Assembly: GCF_900114355.1 (NCBI RefSeq)
Contig: NZ_FOSS01000006.1
Location: 1-64,000 of the forward strand
DNA length: 64,000 nt
DNA from: Lysobacter sp. cf310
Lineage (GTDB): Bacteria > Pseudomonadota > Gammaproteobacteria > Xanthomonadales > Xanthomonadaceae
Direction of reading: 5' to 3'
The translations under genes were made by a program, and so were the position numbers. The first letter of the stretch is position 1, and every line of letters starts with the position of its first letter. The notes below the pieces were generated by a model that was given only the letters and a program-made list of their open reading frames with translations, was not told the DNA's origin and ran no database searches. This document shows positions 6,127 through 64,000 of the stretch, piece after piece.

Positions 6127-6316
6127 GTAGTCCTCCGCCAATGGCGATGCATGCCAAACGACCTTGAACCCGGGGTTCAAGTGGGGACGCTTGGCTGCCT
6201 TCGGGCTTCCCGCTACGAGGCGGACTTGCACTCCGGGCTTCCGCTGCGCCCCCGTGGTCGTCATTAAGGGACAAGGCGAATGTTTGTGCACGCCGTCGCG
6301 CACAGCAGAGGACGTC
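6127..6316 (-). ncRNA. ssrS: 6S RNA
   Basis: 6S RNA mimics an open promoter and sequesters the housekeeping RNA polymerase in stationary phase. The diagnostic CTTGAACC..GGGTTCAAG hairpin is at 6163-6181, as in the E. coli 3' half. The two ends pair: GTCCTC near 6308-6313 with GAGGAC at 6130-6135, and GCGTGC with GCATGC further inside. The length of about 190 matches the usual 184. The position between zapA and fau is the conserved genomic site. The ends are estimated from the closing stem to within about 5 bases. Confidence 0.93.
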
Positions 6317-56455: not shown

Positions 56456-58855
56456 TCACCACTTGTAACCGGCCTTCACGTAGACGAAGGCGCCGTTGAA
56501 ACCGAACGGCGAGGCGGTGTTGTAGGGCAGGTAGTTGCGCGTGCCCAGCACCAGCTTGGACTCGTCCGGGTACTCGTCGAGCACGTTGTCGCCGCCGACG
56601 GTGAAGTCCCAGTTGTCCAGGTGGTAGGTCGCGGCCAGGTCCAGCGTCCACTTGGCGCTGAAGGTCTGGTCCAGCAGCGGATTGGTCGCGTGCAGTTCGG
56701 TGAACTCGCCGTAGCGGGTGGCGGTGGCGTTGAAGCTCCAGTTGCCGGTATCCCAATCGCCGGCCAGGAAGAACTTGTCCTTGGGCGCGCCCTTGGTGAT
56801 GCGGCCGATCTCGGTGCGGCCGATGCGCACCGCCGCCGGGTCGATCGCGGCCAGGCGCGCCGGGTTGGGGGCGATCTTCTCGATCTCGGTCTTGGAGTAG
56901 TTGTAGCCCAGGGTGAGGCCGAACTTGCCCGAGGCCAGGTCCCAGTTCTGGGTCGCGATGATGTCCACGCCCTGGGTCTTGGTGTCGACGGCGTTGGTGA
57001 AATAGCGACCGCCGCCGATGCCCGGATAGCCGTTGGCCTGCAGGTAGTTGCGCACCGCGGTGCTGGTCAGGTTTTCCGACAGCAGGATGCGGTCGTCGAC
57101 CTTGATGTGGTACGCGTCGATGGTGATGTACAGGCTGTCGCTGGGCTGCAGCACCAGGCCCAGGCTGTAGTTGGTGGATTCCTCGGCCTTCAGCGATTCC
57201 GAGCCCAGCGCGATCGCGGCCGGATTGTCGACGCGGAAGGTGCCGATCTCGTAGGGAACGCCGCTGATGAAATTGGTCGCGATCGACTGGAAGAACTGCT
57301 GCTGCAGCGAGGGCGCGCGGAAGCCGGTGGAGGCGGTGGCGCGCAGGGCGACCTTGTCGGTGAAGGCGTAGCGCGCCGACAGCTTGCCCGAGGTGGTGTC
57401 GCCGAAATCGCTGTAGCTTTCGAAGCGCGCGGCGATGCCGGCGGAGAACTTGTCGGTCAGGTCGGCCTCGACGTCGGCATAGAGCGAATAGCTGTGGCGG
57501 TCGAAATCGCCGGCGTCGCTGGCGCGGAAGCCGGAGAACACCTGCGCGCCCGGAATGATCTGGCCGTTGGAGGCGGGCACGCCGCCGTTGGCGTAGGACA
57601 GCGGTTCGCCGGCGTGCTGCGAGAACTCCTCGCCGCGCCATTCCGCGCCCCAGGCGAAGGTCACCGGATACTGCCAGCCGAAATCGACCGGACGCGCGAA
57701 GTCCAGATTCAACACGTGCTGGGTGACTTCCAGCGCGCCGGCATAGAACTGCGTCGGCGAGGTCGGGCCCAGGCTGCGGTTGAGGGTGTGCTCGATGTCG
57801 AAGCTGAGTTCGTTGTGGCCGTAGTTGTAGCTGAAGTCGATCTGGGTGCCGCCGGCGGTTTCCGAGCGCAGGCCGACCACCGCCGAGCGGTCCTTGCTGA
57901 TGTTGTGGATCTGCGGCAGGAAGCCGTTCGGGTAGATCGAGGGGATGTTGCGCGGGTCGGCGGCGAAGCGGAAATAGCCGTTGGAGAGCACGTCGCGCTT
58001 GCTGTAGCTGCCGAAGGAATAGAAGGTCAGGTAGTCGACCGGACTGTATTCGCCGTTGTAGGACACCGCGCCGCTGTCGATCTCGGGATCGCCGTAGCGC
58101 TGTTCGACCACGCCCTGGAACGGGCGCGCGCGGTTGGTCTGGTCCTGGTGGCCGCCCTGCGCGGCCAGATGCAGCTTGCCGTTCTCGCCGAGCTTGAAGC
58201 CGGCGTCGCCGGACAGCTGGTACTGCTCGCCGTCGCCGGCGCTGTACTGGCCGTAGCGCGCGGCGACGCTGCCGCCGTGGTCGCTGCCCTTGAGCACGAT
58301 GTTGACCACGCCGGCGATCGCGTCGGAGCCGTACTGCGCCGAGGCGCCGTCGCGCAGCACTTCCACGCGCTCGATCGAGGCGATCGGGATCGCATTGAGA
58401 TCGACCGGCGAGGAGCCGCGGCCCTGGCTGCCGTTGAGGTTGATCAGCGCAGTGGTGTGCCGGCGCTTGCCGTTGACCAGCACCAGCACCTGGTCCGGCG
58501 CCAGACCGCGCAGCTGCGCGGGGCGGACCGCGTCGGTGCCGTCGGTGATGGCCGGGCGCGGGAAGTTCAGCGAGGGCAGGGCGCGCGCCAGCGCGGTCGC
58601 GAGCTCGACTGTGCCGGTGGCCTCCAGCGCCTCCGGGGTGATGATGTCGATCGGCGCGCTGGACTCGGCGACGGTGCGATCGCTGACCCGGGTGCCGGTG
58701 ACGATCACCTGGTCCAGGGTGTGGGCCTCGGAGGCGGGTTCGCCCGGAGCGGCCGCGTCCTGGGCGTAGGCCGGGGCGGCGAGCGCCGTGAGCAGGGCCA
58801 GCGACAACGGGGCGAGGACGAGCGGACGGCGTACGGCGCGGACGGCTACGGACAT
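56456..58855 (-). CDS. TonB-dependent outer-membrane receptor
   Basis: This 799-residue receptor has a signal peptide (about 1-31), a TonB box region (LDQVIVTGTRVSDR), a plug domain (TPEALEATGTVELATALARALPSLNFPRPAITDGTDAVRPAQLRGLAPDQVLVLVNGKRR, with IERVEVLRDGASAQYGSDAIAGVVN) and a C-terminal barrel ending FVYVKAGYKW. The ligand is unknown. The paired amidohydrolase suggests uptake of an oligopeptide or modified amide. AAGGAG is 10 bases before the ATG. Confidence 0.93.
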   Translation of the reverse strand: MSVAVRAVRRPLVLAPLSLALLTALAAPAYAQDAAAPGEPASEAHTLDQVIVTGTRVSDRTVAESSAPIDIITPEALEATGTVELATALARALPSLNFPRPAITDGTDAVRPAQLRGLAPDQVLVLVNGKRRHTTALINLNGSQGRGSSPVDLNAIPIASIERVEVLRDGASAQYGSDAIAGVVNIVLKGSDHGGSVAARYGQYSAGDGEQYQLSGDAGFKLGENGKLHLAAQGGHQDQTNRARPFQGVVEQRYGDPEIDSGAVSYNGEYSPVDYLTFYSFGSYSKRDVLSNGYFRFAADPRNIPSIYPNGFLPQIHNISKDRSAVVGLRSETAGGTQIDFSYNYGHNELSFDIEHTLNRSLGPTSPTQFYAGALEVTQHVLNLDFARPVDFGWQYPVTFAWGAEWRGEEFSQHAGEPLSYANGGVPASNGQIIPGAQVFSGFRASDAGDFDRHSYSLYADVEADLTDKFSAGIAARFESYSDFGDTTSGKLSARYAFTDKVALRATASTGFRAPSLQQQFFQSIATNFISGVPYEIGTFRVDNPAAIALGSESLKAEESTNYSLGLVLQPSDSLYITIDAYHIKVDDRILLSENLTSTAVRNYLQANGYPGIGGGRYFTNAVDTKTQGVDIIATQNWDLASGKFGLTLGYNYSKTEIEKIAPNPARLAAIDPAAVRIGRTEIGRITKGAPKDKFFLAGDWDTGNWSFNATATRYGEFTELHATNPLLDQTFSAKWTLDLAATYHLDNWDFTVGGDNVLDEYPDESKLVLGTRNYLPYNTASPFGFNGAFVYVKAGYKW

Positions 58856-58931: not shown

Positions 58932-59113
58932 ACCCACTTTCGTATAGGGAAATAGCCGTACGTCATGGTTTCGGGAATTGGGTGTGCCGCCGATCTGCCT
59001 GATGACACACCCGCCGGGTCCAGTGCGGCAGCGGGCGCCCACGACGCCCGGCCGCGGTCCGGCTCATGCCGTTTGCTCATGGCGGCGGAGCTGGCCCGGG
59101 CTGCTACCATGCG

Positions 59114-59322
59114 CGGGCTTGAGGTGATCGCCGGCCCCGCCGGCGATTGAAACGGGAATCCGGTGCGCCAGTCCTCCGAACGGAGCGACGGCCATTCCGG
59201 AGCTGCCCCCGCAACGGTAAGTAAGACGAACGATCCGCAACGAAGCCACTGTGCGCATGCATGGGAAGGCGCGGACCGGAGGGCTGGAGGCCCTCGCTTG
59301 CAAGCCCGGAGACCGGCCTGAG
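59114..59322 (+). promoter_or_regulatory. Cobalamin riboswitch
   Basis: The RNA-level element has the expected core in order: AACGGGAATCCGGTG (59150-59165), AGCTGCCCCCGCAACGGTAA (59201-59220), GAAGCCACTG (about 59242-59251), ATGGGAAGGCGCGGACCGG (about 59261-59279) and the B12 box AAGCCCGGAGACCGGCC (59302-59318). It represses expression when adenosylcobalamin is abundant, here over btuB, the two BtuM-like genes, cobO and cobB. The expression platform lies in 59323-59451; no T-tailed terminator is obvious, so occlusion of the AGGAG ribosome-binding site is more likely. Confidence 0.93.
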
Positions 59323-59451
59323 GCTGACCCGACACGCGGTGGGCGCTGTCATGGGGCCGCCTTGCGTCCGCGCGTCGCCGCCTCGTCGTTCCCTCGGCGT
59401 GTCTCCGACCCATCGTTTCCGCGCGGGTAGGCGCGGATCAGGAGCCATGCT

Positions 59452-61305
59452 TTGAATTTCCACCCTCACGCGCTTCGCCGCACCGCGCTGGCGACGGCGT
59501 TGCTGTCCGTCGTCTCCCCGGTCTGGGCCGCCGATGCCGCCACCGACCTCGACCAGGTCGTGGTCACCGCCAGCCGCACCGCTCAGACCCAGGACGCGAC
59601 CCTGGCCTCGGTCACCGTGATCGACCGCGAAGACATCGAACGCCTGCAGCCGGCCAACTTGCCCGACCTGCTGCGCGGCACGCCCGGCCTGTCGATGGCC
59701 AACAACGGCGGCCCCGGCAAGTCGACCTCGCTGTTCCTGCGCGGCACCGAGTCCGACCATGTGCTGGTGCTGGTCGACGGCATCAAGATCGGCTCGGCCA
59801 CCAGCGGCGGCGCGTCCCTGCAAGACATTCCGGTCGAACAGATCGAGCGCATCGAGATCGTGCGCGGTCCGTTCTCCAGCCTGTACGGCTCCGAGGCCCT
59901 GGGCGGCGTGATCCAGATCTTCACCCGCCGTCCGCAGGGCGCGTTCGCGCCGCACGCCAGCGCCTCGATCGGCAGTTGGCAGACGCGTCGCGGCACCCTG
60001 GGCGTGGGCGGCAAGGGCGACAACGGCTGGTACTCGATCAACGCCGCCAGCGAGGACACCGACGGCATCAACGCCTGTCGCGGCAAGCCCTCGCCGGGCG
60101 GCGCCGGCTGCTTCACCAACTCGCCCGACCGCGACGGCTACCGCAACCTGTCGCTGACCGCGCAGGGCGGCTACCGCTTCAGCGACGCCTGGGACGCCGA
60201 AGCGCGTGTGTTCCGCGCCGAAGGCCGCAACGAGTACGACGGCAGCACCAACAACCAGAGCGACACCGTGCAGCAGGTCGCCGGCGGACGCCTGCGCTAC
60301 GCCCCCAGCGAACAGGCCACGCTGATCCTCAACCTGGGCCGCAGCAGCGACCTCAGCGACAACTACCGCAACGGCGTCTACTCCAGCACCTTCAATACGC
60401 GTCGCAAGCTGGGCTCGCTGCAGGGCGACTTCGGCCTCGGCGGCGGCCTGCTCACCCTGGGCTACGACTGGCAGCGCGACGAGGTCGAAAGCAGCACCGT
60501 CTACGCCCACGACCGCCGCATCAACCGCGGCCTGTTCGGCCAGTACCAGCGCGAATCTGGCGCGCACGCGCTGCAGGCCAGCCTGCGCCGCGACGACGAC
60601 AGCCAGTTCGGCGGCCAGACCACCGGCAGCGCGCTGTGGGGCTGGAACCTCAGCGAACAGCTGCGCCTGACCGCGAGCTACGGCACCGCGTTCAAGGCCC
60701 CGACTTTCAACGAACTGTACTTTCCCGGCTTCGGCAACGCCGATCTCAAGCCGGAGGAGTCGCGCAGCTTCGAACTCGGCCTGCGCGGCGAACACGCCTG
60801 GGGCGGCTGGTCGCTCAACGCCTACGACACCCGGGTCGACGAATTGATCGCGTTCGATGCTTCGATCGGTCTGCCCGGCAACATCGATCGCGCGCGCATC
60901 CAGGGCGTGGAGGCCACGGTCGATACCGTCTTGGCCGGTTGGGACCTGCGCGCCAGCGCGACGTGGCTGGATCCGCGCAACGACAGCCGTACCGCCAGCC
61001 GCGACAAGATCCTGCCGCGGCGCGCGCGCGAAAGCGCACGCTTCGACGCCGACCGTCGCTACGGCCGCTTCAGCCTGGGCGGCAGCGTCTACGTCGCCGG
61101 CGAACGTTTCGACGATCTGGCCAACACGCGCCGCCTGGACGGCTACGCCACCACCGACCTGCGCCTGGGCTTCCGTTTCGACGATTCCTGGAGCCTGCAG
61201 CTGGCGGCCAACAACGTGTTCAACCAGCGCTACGAGACCGCGGCCTACTACAACCAGCCCGGCCGCAACTACCTGTTGACCCTGCGCTACCGCGCGGCGA
61301 ACTGA
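59452..61305 (+). CDS. btuB: Cobalamin TonB-dependent receptor BtuB
   Basis: BtuB takes up corrinoids across the outer membrane with energy from TonB. The 617-residue product has a signal peptide (LATALLSVVSPVWA), a TonB box (DLDQVVVTASR), a plug (SLFLRGTESDHVLVLVDGIKIGSA; IERIEIVRGPFSSLYGSEALGGVIQI) and a barrel ending YNQPGRNYLLTLRYRAAN. The start is TTG at 59452, 7 bases after AGGAG. An ATG-CTT-TGA triplet at 59447-59455 overlaps it and sits too close to the ribosome-binding site to be the real start. It is controlled by the B12 riboswitch upstream. Confidence 0.93.
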   Translation: MNFHPHALRRTALATALLSVVSPVWAADAATDLDQVVVTASRTAQTQDATLASVTVIDREDIERLQPANLPDLLRGTPGLSMANNGGPGKSTSLFLRGTESDHVLVLVDGIKIGSATSGGASLQDIPVEQIERIEIVRGPFSSLYGSEALGGVIQIFTRRPQGAFAPHASASIGSWQTRRGTLGVGGKGDNGWYSINAASEDTDGINACRGKPSPGGAGCFTNSPDRDGYRNLSLTAQGGYRFSDAWDAEARVFRAEGRNEYDGSTNNQSDTVQQVAGGRLRYAPSEQATLILNLGRSSDLSDNYRNGVYSSTFNTRRKLGSLQGDFGLGGGLLTLGYDWQRDEVESSTVYAHDRRINRGLFGQYQRESGAHALQASLRRDDDSQFGGQTTGSALWGWNLSEQLRLTASYGTAFKAPTFNELYFPGFGNADLKPEESRSFELGLRGEHAWGGWSLNAYDTRVDELIAFDASIGLPGNIDRARIQGVEATVDTVLAGWDLRASATWLDPRNDSRTASRDKILPRRARESARFDADRRYGRFSLGGSVYVAGERFDDLANTRRLDGYATTDLRLGFRFDDSWSLQLAANNVFNQRYETAAYYNQPGRNYLLTLRYRAAN

Positions 61306-61354: not shown

Positions 61355-61945
61355 ATGAACGCTCCCAGCCGATCCGTCTACTACAGTCTGTTCACCGCAC
61401 TCGCCGCGGTCATGGTCGCCACCCGCTTCCACCACTTCGGCGACGCGCTGCACCTGCCCGATGCGTCGATGGCGGTGTTCTTCCTCGGCGGCCTCTGGCT
61501 GCGCAAGCACCTGGGTTTCGTCGCTTTCCTGGTGCTGGCGGTGGCGATCGACTGGATCGCGATCCAGGCCCAGGGCAAGAACTTCTTCGAGCACTACTGC
61601 GTCACGCCGTCGTACGCCTTCCTGCTGTTGGCGTACGCGGCGCTGTGGTACGGCGGCCGCGCCTATGCGCAGCGGCTGCAGGCGACCCCGCGCGCGCTGT
61701 TGGGCGCGCTCGCGGTCGGCCTGGTCGCAGCCTCGGTGTCGTTTCTGATCTCCAACGGCGCGTTCTACTGGCTGGGCGGACGCTACGAGGATCCGAACCT
61801 GAGCCAGTACCTGGCGCGGGTGTGGCAGTGGGGGCCGCTGTTCGTGCGCACCACTCTGAGCTACATCGCGGTGGCCCTGGCCGCCTATGCGCTGATCGCG
61901 CGCGTTCTGCCGGTGCGGGTCGCGCCGCGCGACGCCCAGGCCTGA
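61355..61945 (+). CDS. btuM: BtuM-like cobalamin transporter, paralogue 1
   Basis: This 196-residue inner-membrane protein with about 6 helices has key residues of the BtuM type: RFHHFGDALHLPDASMAVFFLGGLWLR, an Asp in helix 3 (AIDWIAI, D66) and Cys82 in EHYCVTPSYAFLLLAYAALWYGG. BtuM proteins are solitary ECF-type S components that carry B12 and use a conserved Cys to bind cobalt (as characterised in Thiobacillus denitrificans). It follows btuB by 49 bases in the riboswitch operon. A second homologue follows at once. Confidence 0.8.
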   Translation: MNAPSRSVYYSLFTALAAVMVATRFHHFGDALHLPDASMAVFFLGGLWLRKHLGFVAFLVLAVAIDWIAIQAQGKNFFEHYCVTPSYAFLLLAYAALWYGGRAYAQRLQATPRALLGALAVGLVAASVSFLISNGAFYWLGGRYEDPNLSQYLARVWQWGPLFVRTTLSYIAVALAAYALIARVLPVRVAPRDAQA

Positions 61946-61951
61946 TCGAGG

Positions 61952-62566
61952 ATGACCACCATGACCGCAAGCCCCACGCATTCCCTGCCGCTGAGCTCGT
62001 CGCGCGCGCAGATCCTGGTCGGCGTCGCTCTGGCGGCGCTGATGATTGCCACCCGCGGCCAGCACTTCGCCACCATCGACCGCCTGCCCAGCGCGTCGTG
62101 GGCGATCTTCTTCCTCGCCGGCGCGCTGTTGCGGCCGATGTGGATGCTGCCGCTGCTGTTCGTGCTGGCCTCGCTGCTGGACATCGTCAGCCTGGCCTCG
62201 GGCACGATCGGCGACTGGTGCCTGTCGCCGGCGTACTGGGCGCTGGCGCCGGCCTACGCGACGCTGTGGCTGGCCGGTCATTTCTACGCCCGCATCCACC
62301 GCGATCGCTGGACCGCCCTGCCGCGCCTGGCGCTGGTACTGGCGGTGGCCGCGTTCGCGACCTATGTCTTCTCCGGCGGCGGCTTCTACTTCTTCTCCGG
62401 CCGCTACCCGGATCCCACGCTGGCCGGCTTCGCCGCGCGCATCGGCCAGTACTATCCGCGTAGCCTCGGCACCCTGGCCGGCTATGTCGGCACCGCGTTC
62501 GCGCTGCTGGCGATAGTCCGCGGCATCGGCGCCCTACGTACCGCCCAGCAGGGAGCCCGCGCATGA
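61952..62566 (+). CDS. btuM: BtuM-like cobalamin transporter, paralogue 2
   Basis: This 204-residue homologue of the previous gene starts 6 bases after it. Aligned parts are HFATIDRLPSASWAIFFLAGALLRP, LLDIVSLASGTIGDWCLSPAYWALAPAYATLWLAGHFYAR (Asp77, Cys90) and GGGFYFFSGRYPDPTLAGFAARIGQYYP. The conserved Cys is retained, so both copies could handle corrinoid, perhaps with different ligands or as a heteromer. Its end overlaps cobO by four bases (ATGA). Confidence 0.78.
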   Translation: MTTMTASPTHSLPLSSSRAQILVGVALAALMIATRGQHFATIDRLPSASWAIFFLAGALLRPMWMLPLLFVLASLLDIVSLASGTIGDWCLSPAYWALAPAYATLWLAGHFYARIHRDRWTALPRLALVLAVAAFATYVFSGGGFYFFSGRYPDPTLAGFAARIGQYYPRSLGTLAGYVGTAFALLAIVRGIGALRTAQQGARA

Positions 62567-63180
62567 GCGACACCGTCCCGACCCAGGAAGAACGCCACCG
62601 CGAACGCATGCAGCGCAAGAAGGAGCTGGTCGATCGCAAGATCGCCCGCGCCACCATCGAGCGCGGCGTGCTGGTGGTCAACACCGGCAACGGCAAGGGC
62701 AAGAGCTCGTCCGGCTTCGGCATGCTCGCGCGCTCGCTGGGCCACGGCTTCCGCTGCGGCGTGGTGCAGTTCATCAAGGGCAGCTTCTCGACCGGCGAGG
62801 AAGCCTTCTTCCGCCGCTTCGAGGGCGACCAGCTCGCCTACCACGTGATGGGCGAGGGCTTCACCTGGGAAACCCAGGACAAGGCGCGCGACATCGCGGC
62901 CGCGCAGGCGGCCTGGGCCAAGGCCGCGCAGATGCTGGCCGACGAATCCTGCGACTTCGTGCTGTTGGACGAGCTCAACATCGCGCTCGCGCATCGCTAT
63001 GTCGAACTCGACGCCGTGCTGGCCGCGGTCGCCGCGCGCCCGCCCTTGCAGCACGTGGTCATCACCGGCCGCGGCGCGCCCGACCGCCTGATCGAGGTCG
63101 CCGACACGGTGACCGAGATGCGTGTGGTCAAGCACGCGTTCCAGGCCGGCATCAAGGCCCAGAAAGGCATCGAGCTCTAA
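62563..63180 (+). CDS. cobO: Corrinoid adenosyltransferase CobO (BtuR)
   Basis: CobO attaches the adenosyl group from ATP to the reduced cobalt of corrinoids. The 205-residue product has a P-loop VVNTGNGKGKSSSGFGMLARSLG (about 38-60), GVVQFIKGSF, FTWETQDKARD, CDFVLLDELNIALAHRY and HVVITGRGAPDRLIEVADTVTEM, with C-terminal HAFQAGIKAQKGIEL. The CobO/BtuR family is the housekeeping type. The gene overlaps the second btuM-like gene by ATGA and is followed 3 bases later by cobB. Confidence 0.97.
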   Translation: MSDTVPTQEERHRERMQRKKELVDRKIARATIERGVLVVNTGNGKGKSSSGFGMLARSLGHGFRCGVVQFIKGSFSTGEEAFFRRFEGDQLAYHVMGEGFTWETQDKARDIAAAQAAWAKAAQMLADESCDFVLLDELNIALAHRYVELDAVLAAVAARPPLQHVVITGRGAPDRLIEVADTVTEMRVVKHAFQAGIKAQKGIEL

Positions 63181-63183
63181 GCC

Positions 63184-64000
63184 ATGACCGCAACGCACGC
63201 AGCGCAGGCCGTACGCCATTGTCCGGCCCTGCTGGTGTCCGCGCCGGCCTCCGGCCAGGGCAAGACCAGCGTCACCGCCGCGCTCGCGCGCTGGCATAGC
63301 CGTCAGGGCCGCCGGGTGCGGGTGTTCAAGACCGGTCCGGATTTTCTCGATCCGATGGTGCACGAGCGCGCCAGCGGCGCGCCCGCCTATCAGCTCGATC
63401 TGTGGATGTGCGGCGAGGACGAGGTGCGCGCGCGGCTGTACGAAGCCGCGGGCGAGGCCGATCTGATCCTGGTCGAAGGCGTGATGGGCCTGTTCGACGG
63501 CAAACCCTCCAGCGCCGACCTCGCGCTGGCGCTGGGCCTGCCGGTGCTGGCGGTGATCGACGGCTCGGCGATGGCGCAGACCTTCGGCGCGCTAGCCGTG
63601 GGGCTGGCGCGCTACCGCGACGGCCTGCAGGTGCATGGCGTGGCCGCGAACCGCATCGGCAGCGCCTACCACGCGCAGTTGCTGCGCGAGAGCCTGCCGG
63701 CGTCGCTGCATTGGCTGGGCGCCTTGCCGCGCGATCCCGCGCTAGCCCTGCCCGAGCGCCATCTGGGCCTGGTGTCCGCGGGCGAGCTCGGCGATCTGGA
63801 CGCGCGCCTGGATGCGCTGGCCGACGCCTGGGCCACGCATGCCGAGGCCACGCTGCCGCCGCCGGTCGCGTTCGCGCCGGTCGAATCCGCCGCCGTGCCG
63901 GCGCTGCCGTCGGGCTGGCGCGTCGCGGTCGCGCGCGACGCCGCGTTCTGCTTCCTGTATCCGGCCAACCTCGATCTGCTGCATGCGGCCGGCGCGGAGC
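63184..64000 (+). CDS. cobB: Cobyrinate a,c-diamide synthase, partial
   Basis: This CobB/CbiA-type ATP- and glutamine-dependent amidase amidates the a and c side chains of (hydrogeno)cobyrinate. 272 codons are visible before the window end. The N-terminal P-loop VSAPASGQGKTSVTAALARW (18-37) is followed by RVFKTGPDFLDPMVHERASG, YQLDLWMCGED, LILVEGVMGLFDG and AVIDGSAMAQTFGALAVGLARYR, the DRTP/GATase1 ATP-grasp-like half. The C-terminal glutaminase half lies beyond the window. It starts 3 bases after cobO, in the B12 operon. Confidence 0.93.
   Translation, partial: MTATHAAQAVRHCPALLVSAPASGQGKTSVTAALARWHSRQGRRVRVFKTGPDFLDPMVHERASGAPAYQLDLWMCGEDEVRARLYEAAGEADLILVEGVMGLFDGKPSSADLALALGLPVLAVIDGSAMAQTFGALAVGLARYRDGLQVHGVAANRIGSAYHAQLLRESLPASLHWLGALPRDPALALPERHLGLVSAGELGDLDARLDALADAWATHAEATLPPPVAFAPVESAAVPALPSGWRVAVARDAAFCFLYPANLDLLHAAGAE

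Follow-up and report, generated by a model that had tools for sequence, protein, structure and literature searches.

Two adjacent BtuM-family proteins of separate subfamilies in a cobalamin-riboswitch operon of Lysobacter sp. cf310

The last part of the window (the whole 64,000-nucleotide stretch of Lysobacter sp. cf310 that we analyzed) encodes two adjacent membrane proteins, here called M1 and M2. By sequence and predicted fold, both are members of the BtuM family. They are probably solitary, S-component-like B12 carriers that work independently of each other, belong to separate BtuM subfamilies, and serve one corrinoid uptake and salvage operon. The operon has the following parts in the window.

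59105–59335, plus strand: cobalamin riboswitch RF00174 (cmscan 101.4 bits, gathering threshold 31.5), upstream of btuB
59452–61305, plus strand: btuB, TonB-dependent B12 outer-membrane receptor (TIGR01779, 763 bits)
61355–61945, plus strand: M1, BtuM family, subfamily outside the BtuMTd clade (ORF of 196 aa)
61952–62566, plus strand: M2, BtuM family, clade of the characterized BtuM (ORF of 204 aa)
62563–63180, plus strand: cobO/btuR, corrinoid adenosyltransferase (TIGR00708, 218.4 bits; PF02572, 209.6 bits)
63184–64000, plus strand: cobB/cbiA, 437 aa, continuing past the window end (PRK01077, 287 bits on the part in the window)

The stop codon of M2 and the start codon of cobO overlap as ATGA. 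The true start of M2 is perhaps the ATG at 61961, which is better spaced (GAGG at 61948–61951) and would give a protein of 201 aa. Beyond the window, cobB is followed by cobD, cobC (threonine-phosphate decarboxylase type), cobQ, cobU, cobT, a phosphatase-like ORF, and cobS; these were named by reading the ORFs, without a family search. Divergent from the operon lies a TonB-dependent-receptor-like ORF of 799 aa (56456–58855, minus strand), a weak btuB match (33%), and similar weak matches also flank the operon in several relatives. A 6S RNA (RF00013, 88.8 bits) is located at 6128–6314 on the minus strand.

M1 and M2 are homologous, with 68 of 186 columns identical (37%, E 8e-28). They share the segments LPDASMAVFFLGGLWLR (M1) and LPSASWAIFFLAGALLR (M2), as well as YCVTPSY and WCLSPAY, respectively, and the Cys of each aligns with the cobalt-binding Cys. 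Scans with Pfam and NCBIfam gave no model above cut-off for either protein, so the HMM search proposed in the first-pass annotation was uninformative. A phmmer search matched both to BtuM (8c7p), with E values of 8.4e-23 for M1 and 2.2e-44 for M2. Among solved sequences, 8c7p/8ovv was the only match of each; the titles are "Tagless BtuM in complex with cyanocobalamin" and "hydroxycobalamin". The AlphaFold (AF2) models of M1 and M2 have mean pLDDT values of 91.4 and 92.3, and their long helices are consistent with six membrane spans, as in the six-helix S-component fold. Foldseek aligned the M1 model to 8c7p with E 3.4e-8, probability 1.00, TM 0.78, and 33% identity, and the M2 model with E 2.9e-11, TM 0.78, and 43% identity. 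Among PDB entries, both models match 8c7p and 8ovv best; the next have E >0.4, with other S-components among them. The first-pass annotation had described two adjacent, homologous, six-helix BtuM-like proteins that share these segments and the Cys in one riboswitch operon, and each of these points is borne out.

The genome holds a third BtuM, M3, and further cobalamin riboswitches.

L003:1453–2046 (G000:C4:189806–190357), minus strand: M3, third BtuM, on the same contig, about 127 kb from M1 and M2
L139:3954–4246: riboswitch before nrdAB
L139:8686–8901: riboswitch before metE
L140:3537–3768: riboswitch before a second btuB
L138:6290–6509, minus strand: strong cobalamin riboswitch (98.9 bits), no recognized B12 gene downstream (read by eye)

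With the one before the M1/M2 operon, the cobalamin riboswitches of the genome number five, one of them without a recognized target. M3 adjoins a PduO-type adenosyltransferase (TIGR00636, 202.4 bits), and an Rfam scan of the 3.5 kb stretch around it gave no match. M3 is beside pduO in 37/37 loci of the first locus set and in all four such loci of the order draw. In 16 fetched genomes of the family, M3 beside pduO is the sole BtuM match. The genome has no match to FecCD (BtuC-type permease), PF02361 (CbiQ/EcfT, T component), or CbiC, for which positive controls were obtained in 13, 10, and 7 of 14 genomes, respectively. By these markers, BtuC-type permease, ECF module, and corrin-ring synthesis are all absent. 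Matches to the B12-binding family were obtained for three proteins, namely MetH, a fused mutase of the IcmF type, and a radical SAM protein.

The pocket residues of T. denitrificans BtuM are H28, D67, C80, Y85, and R153 (PMC6072759, cited throughout from the part of the text available to us). Residues 28, 67, 80, 85, and 153 of 8c7p are H, D, C, Y, and R, in agreement with this. In the alignment, M1 and M2 of the window carry all five. The Cys at the C80 position and the Asp are present in 223/223 aligned rows, a count that includes duplicates (the two locus sets partly overlap), two M1-labeled rows outside the M1 clade, and distant M2-labeled rows. The full set is found in 63/72 M1 rows and 112/114 M2 rows, and M3 has N in place of the pocket Arg in 37/37 rows. 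The His at H28 is missing in 5/72 M1 rows, one of which is cut by a contig end; M1 may therefore be a looser, auxiliary copy. In the Lysobacter enzymogenes group (L061, L062, L174, L180), M1 lacks the pocket His and the neighboring M2 retains it. The first-pass annotation had taken the Cys retained in both copies as an argument against decay of one of them. Neither copy looks decayed by dN/dS (below), but because the Cys is in every row examined it is no special evidence for the pair.

In the first tree, M1, M2, and M3 form separate groups (support 99/93, 100/99, and 100/99). M2 groups with BtuMTd and the Pseudomonadaceae BtuM (97/92), and M1 is a separate branch outside the BtuMTd clade. A single clade of M1 and the Lysobacterales-side M2 was rejected with AU p values of 0.0045 with and 0.0012 without the longest branches, which are weakened by the definition of the groups after the first tree had been seen. 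The pair thus joins two subfamilies that split outside this lineage, and the reading of M1 and M2 as a tandem, which the first-pass annotation hoped to date by phylogeny, holds for adjacent copies but fails for a lineage-specific duplication. A clade of M1 and M3 was not rejected (p 0.14, second tree). The second tree was built without five long-branch rows, namely one of the two copies of L118, L126, L127, L128, and the M1-like copy of Panacagrimonas. L125 and L126 were labeled M1 by best BLAST hit only, and both fall outside the M1 clade. The Panacagrimonas copy also falls outside it, so that its pairing may be separate. With the root of the tree not fixed, M2 may have come by transfer or by an older duplication with losses.

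Among 41 close genomes, our own included, M1 and M2 are adjacent in all 20 of the genus and in one of a sister genus. These 21 also hold at least one unlinked BtuM copy, and the search gave no BtuM match in 16/41. A draw across the phylum found any BtuM in 19/398 genomes and an adjacent pair in two; one further genome has two copies about 12 kb apart. BtuM had been described as normally single, which agrees with the 17 of 19 phylum-draw carriers that have no adjacent pair but not with the window's own family, where the pair is common. The family draw gave at least one copy in 164/247 genomes and at least two in 54 of those 164 (counted from the per-genome table), and the order draw gave a copy in 45/121 genomes and adjacent copies in four. 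In one relative, two additional BtuM copies that scored identically lie 25 kb from each other (G001:C1:4600819–4601376 and 4625714–4626271). The pair was found in Lysobacter, Luteimonas, Pseudoxanthomonas, Stenotrophomonas, Xanthomonas, Frateuria, Rhodanobacter, and Dyella. Since it spans genera, it is not peculiar to this genome, and since it is common to many relatives, it is probably useful and not a recent accident.

From 418 relatives, ordered by their similarity to M2, the best 80 were taken as a set of named loci, in which M1-only genomes are under-represented. Both genes occur in 41 of these loci (35 Lysobacteraceae, 4 Rhodanobacteraceae, 1 Nevskiaceae, and 1 unclassified), and M2 occurs without M1 in the fetched stretch in 39 (38 Pseudomonadaceae and 1 unclassified). 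The gene order is btuB-M1-M2-cobO in 26/26 tandem loci of the first locus set and M1-M2-cobO in 41/41 tandem named loci, with btuB seen in 40 (L218 is cut by a contig end). Of the 38 Pseudomonadaceae loci, all have btuB in front of M2, and all but L177, L197, L202, and L220 (thus 34) have a cobO match behind it. The flanks fetched, which extend to about 6 kb at most, gave no M1 match in any of the 38. In operons of the same order, M1 alone is found between btuB and cobO at 11 loci (L094, L101, L122, L224, L225, L226, L228, L229, L230, L231, and L238); the types of L224–L238, from the order draw, were assigned by best BLAST score, not by the tree. A whole-genome search lists no other BtuM in seven of these 11 genomes (G024, G035, G484, G695, G715, G736, and G737). 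G627 has M3 in addition, and a single extra BtuM copy, unlinked, is found in each of G674, G679, and G703. No btuB-M2-cobO operon without M1 was seen in the window's own order among the loci examined.

Several other loci are of interest in their own right. In L234 and L235, from another family of the same order, the BtuM is distant (38% to an M2) and solitary, and none of the marker genes lies nearby. In Azotobacter vinelandii CA (L193), the btuM found between btuB and cobO is of the M2 type; btuM is stated to be absent from A. vinelandii DJ in the part of PMC4465626 available to us. In Stutzerimonas stutzeri RM2 (L184), the matches to btuB and to cobB are each split into three, as would be seen if the genes were broken or misread. 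Viral contigs searched for M1 gave 22 pattern matches, none of them a relative. The presence of cobB does not follow that of M1: a cobB match is missing in 7/8 Xanthomonas and 2/2 Stenotrophomonas loci, which hold both M1 and M2. The idea that M1 serves early precursors that need cobB is not supported, since loci without a cobB match keep both proteins and M1-only operons occur both with and without cobB.

These distributions bear on what M1 does. A change of role, in which M1 is a sensor, regulator, or decyanating helper instead of a carrier, seems very improbable. The S-component fold has been linked to receptors (PMC11109136, also cited from the part available), and the H28 position is altered in the L. 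enzymogenes group, but M1 is the only listed BtuM in seven genomes, where it lies between btuB and cobO. They also bear on the suggestion in the first-pass annotation that the two proteins function as a pair. An obligate or preferred heterodimer would suit the constant order and adjacency in the tandem loci. However, 11 operons have M1 without M2 and 38 Pseudomonadaceae loci have M2 without M1, and the presence of each type next to btuB without the other argues against an obligate pair. The characterized BtuM, moreover, needs no partner to sustain B12-dependent growth of E. coli (PMC6072759).

Selection and covariation were calculated on 43 loci kept from 44 usable of 46 chosen, with one of 15 listed pairs skipped. 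For the 14 pairs, dN/dS was 0.11–0.43 for M1, 0.11–0.36 for M2, 0.08–0.48 for btuB, and 0.04–0.22 for cobO. The value for M1 exceeded that for M2 in 8/14 pairs, and the mean distances were 0.58 for M1 and 0.49 for M2. Judged by these ratios, M1 and M2 are under purifying selection, with constraint far below that on CobO. The distances of M1 and M2 covary weakly once btuB and cobO are accounted for (partial 0.17, p 0.022). This is above the value for M2-CobO (0.01), as a heterodimer would have it, but not above that for M1-CobO (0.18), and it is below those of M1 and M2 with BtuB (0.35 and 0.45). We regard the heterodimer as improbable, and in its obligate sense the claim of a pair is not upheld.

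M1 and M2 are fixed for different residues at 14 positions (55 vs 49 rows). As a control, the M2 proteins of Lysobacteraceae/Rhodanobacteraceae and of Pseudomonadaceae have one fixed difference (49 vs 38 rows). The mean identity is 34% between M1 and M2 and 53% in the control, so that greater overall divergence is part of this contrast. It is plausible, and to us the likeliest reading, that M1 and M2 prefer different corrinoids or upper-ligand forms, as the first-pass annotation suggested for corrinoids; the 14 positions fit this but do not show it. Alternatively, both could do the same job and be kept for capacity or robustness. The five pocket residues are common to M1 and M2 of the window, and in other genomes each is encoded beside btuB without the other, as such redundancy would allow. 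We nevertheless consider it unlikely, given that two unlike subfamilies with these fixed differences are co-retained in at least two families. Taken together, pocket residues, selection, fixed differences, and covariation speak for two carriers that act independently on partly different substrates rather than for a pair that must act together.

As independent carriers, M1 and M2 would transport B12 as follows. BtuB would bring the corrinoid into the periplasm, where M1 or M2 would bind it base-off through the invariant Cys as a putative cobalt ligand. The loaded carrier would then reorient, or topple, without an ECF module. CobO would adenosylate the cargo and trap it in the cell, and the products of cobB to cobS could complete unfinished corrinoids. 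With sufficient B12, the riboswitch would presumably shut down the operon. Both toppling and metabolic trapping are put forward as hypotheses in PMC6072759, and the way in which a lone S-component carries out transport has yet to be understood (PMC11109136). We tentatively propose, at somewhat less than even chances, a division of labor in the Lysobacterales, in which M1 and M2 with differing preferences share CobO and M3, which lacks the pocket Arg, feeds PduO. If this is true, each pairing of a carrier and an adenosyltransferase is a separate capture-and-trap route. BtuM is a one-protein B12 importer, and genomes with M1 only, M2 only, or both beside btuB, and those with M3 tied to a different trapping enzyme, are a ready comparative set. 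They could address corrinoid choice and whether trapping by adenosyltransferases drives uptake.

No description of the M1-M2 pairing was found in the literature searched, which covered the available part of PMC6072759, and the btuM passages on Xanthomonas available to us describe no tandem pair. The system resembles BtuMTd (8c7p, 8ovv) in fold, length, Cys and pocket residues, the btuB/btuR neighborhood, and the lack of an ECF module. It differs in that BtuMTd is presented as a solitary transporter in PMC6072759, whereas here two adjacent subfamilies and a third, unlinked one occur, and in that M1 lies outside the BtuMTd clade. The BtuM of Pseudomonadaceae (Pseudomonas, Stutzerimonas, Azotobacter, and Azomonas) is likewise an M2-type protein encoded next to btuB and a relative of M2, but has no M1 beside it in the flanks fetched. 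The S-component-type fold is shared with ECF S-components and with solitary BioY, which is a precedent for solitary action (PMC6072759; PMC11109136). A full ECF transporter is set apart from the present system, as this genome has no EcfT match, and the Cys ligand to cobalt is a feature of BtuM, unlike ECF S-components (PMC6072759).
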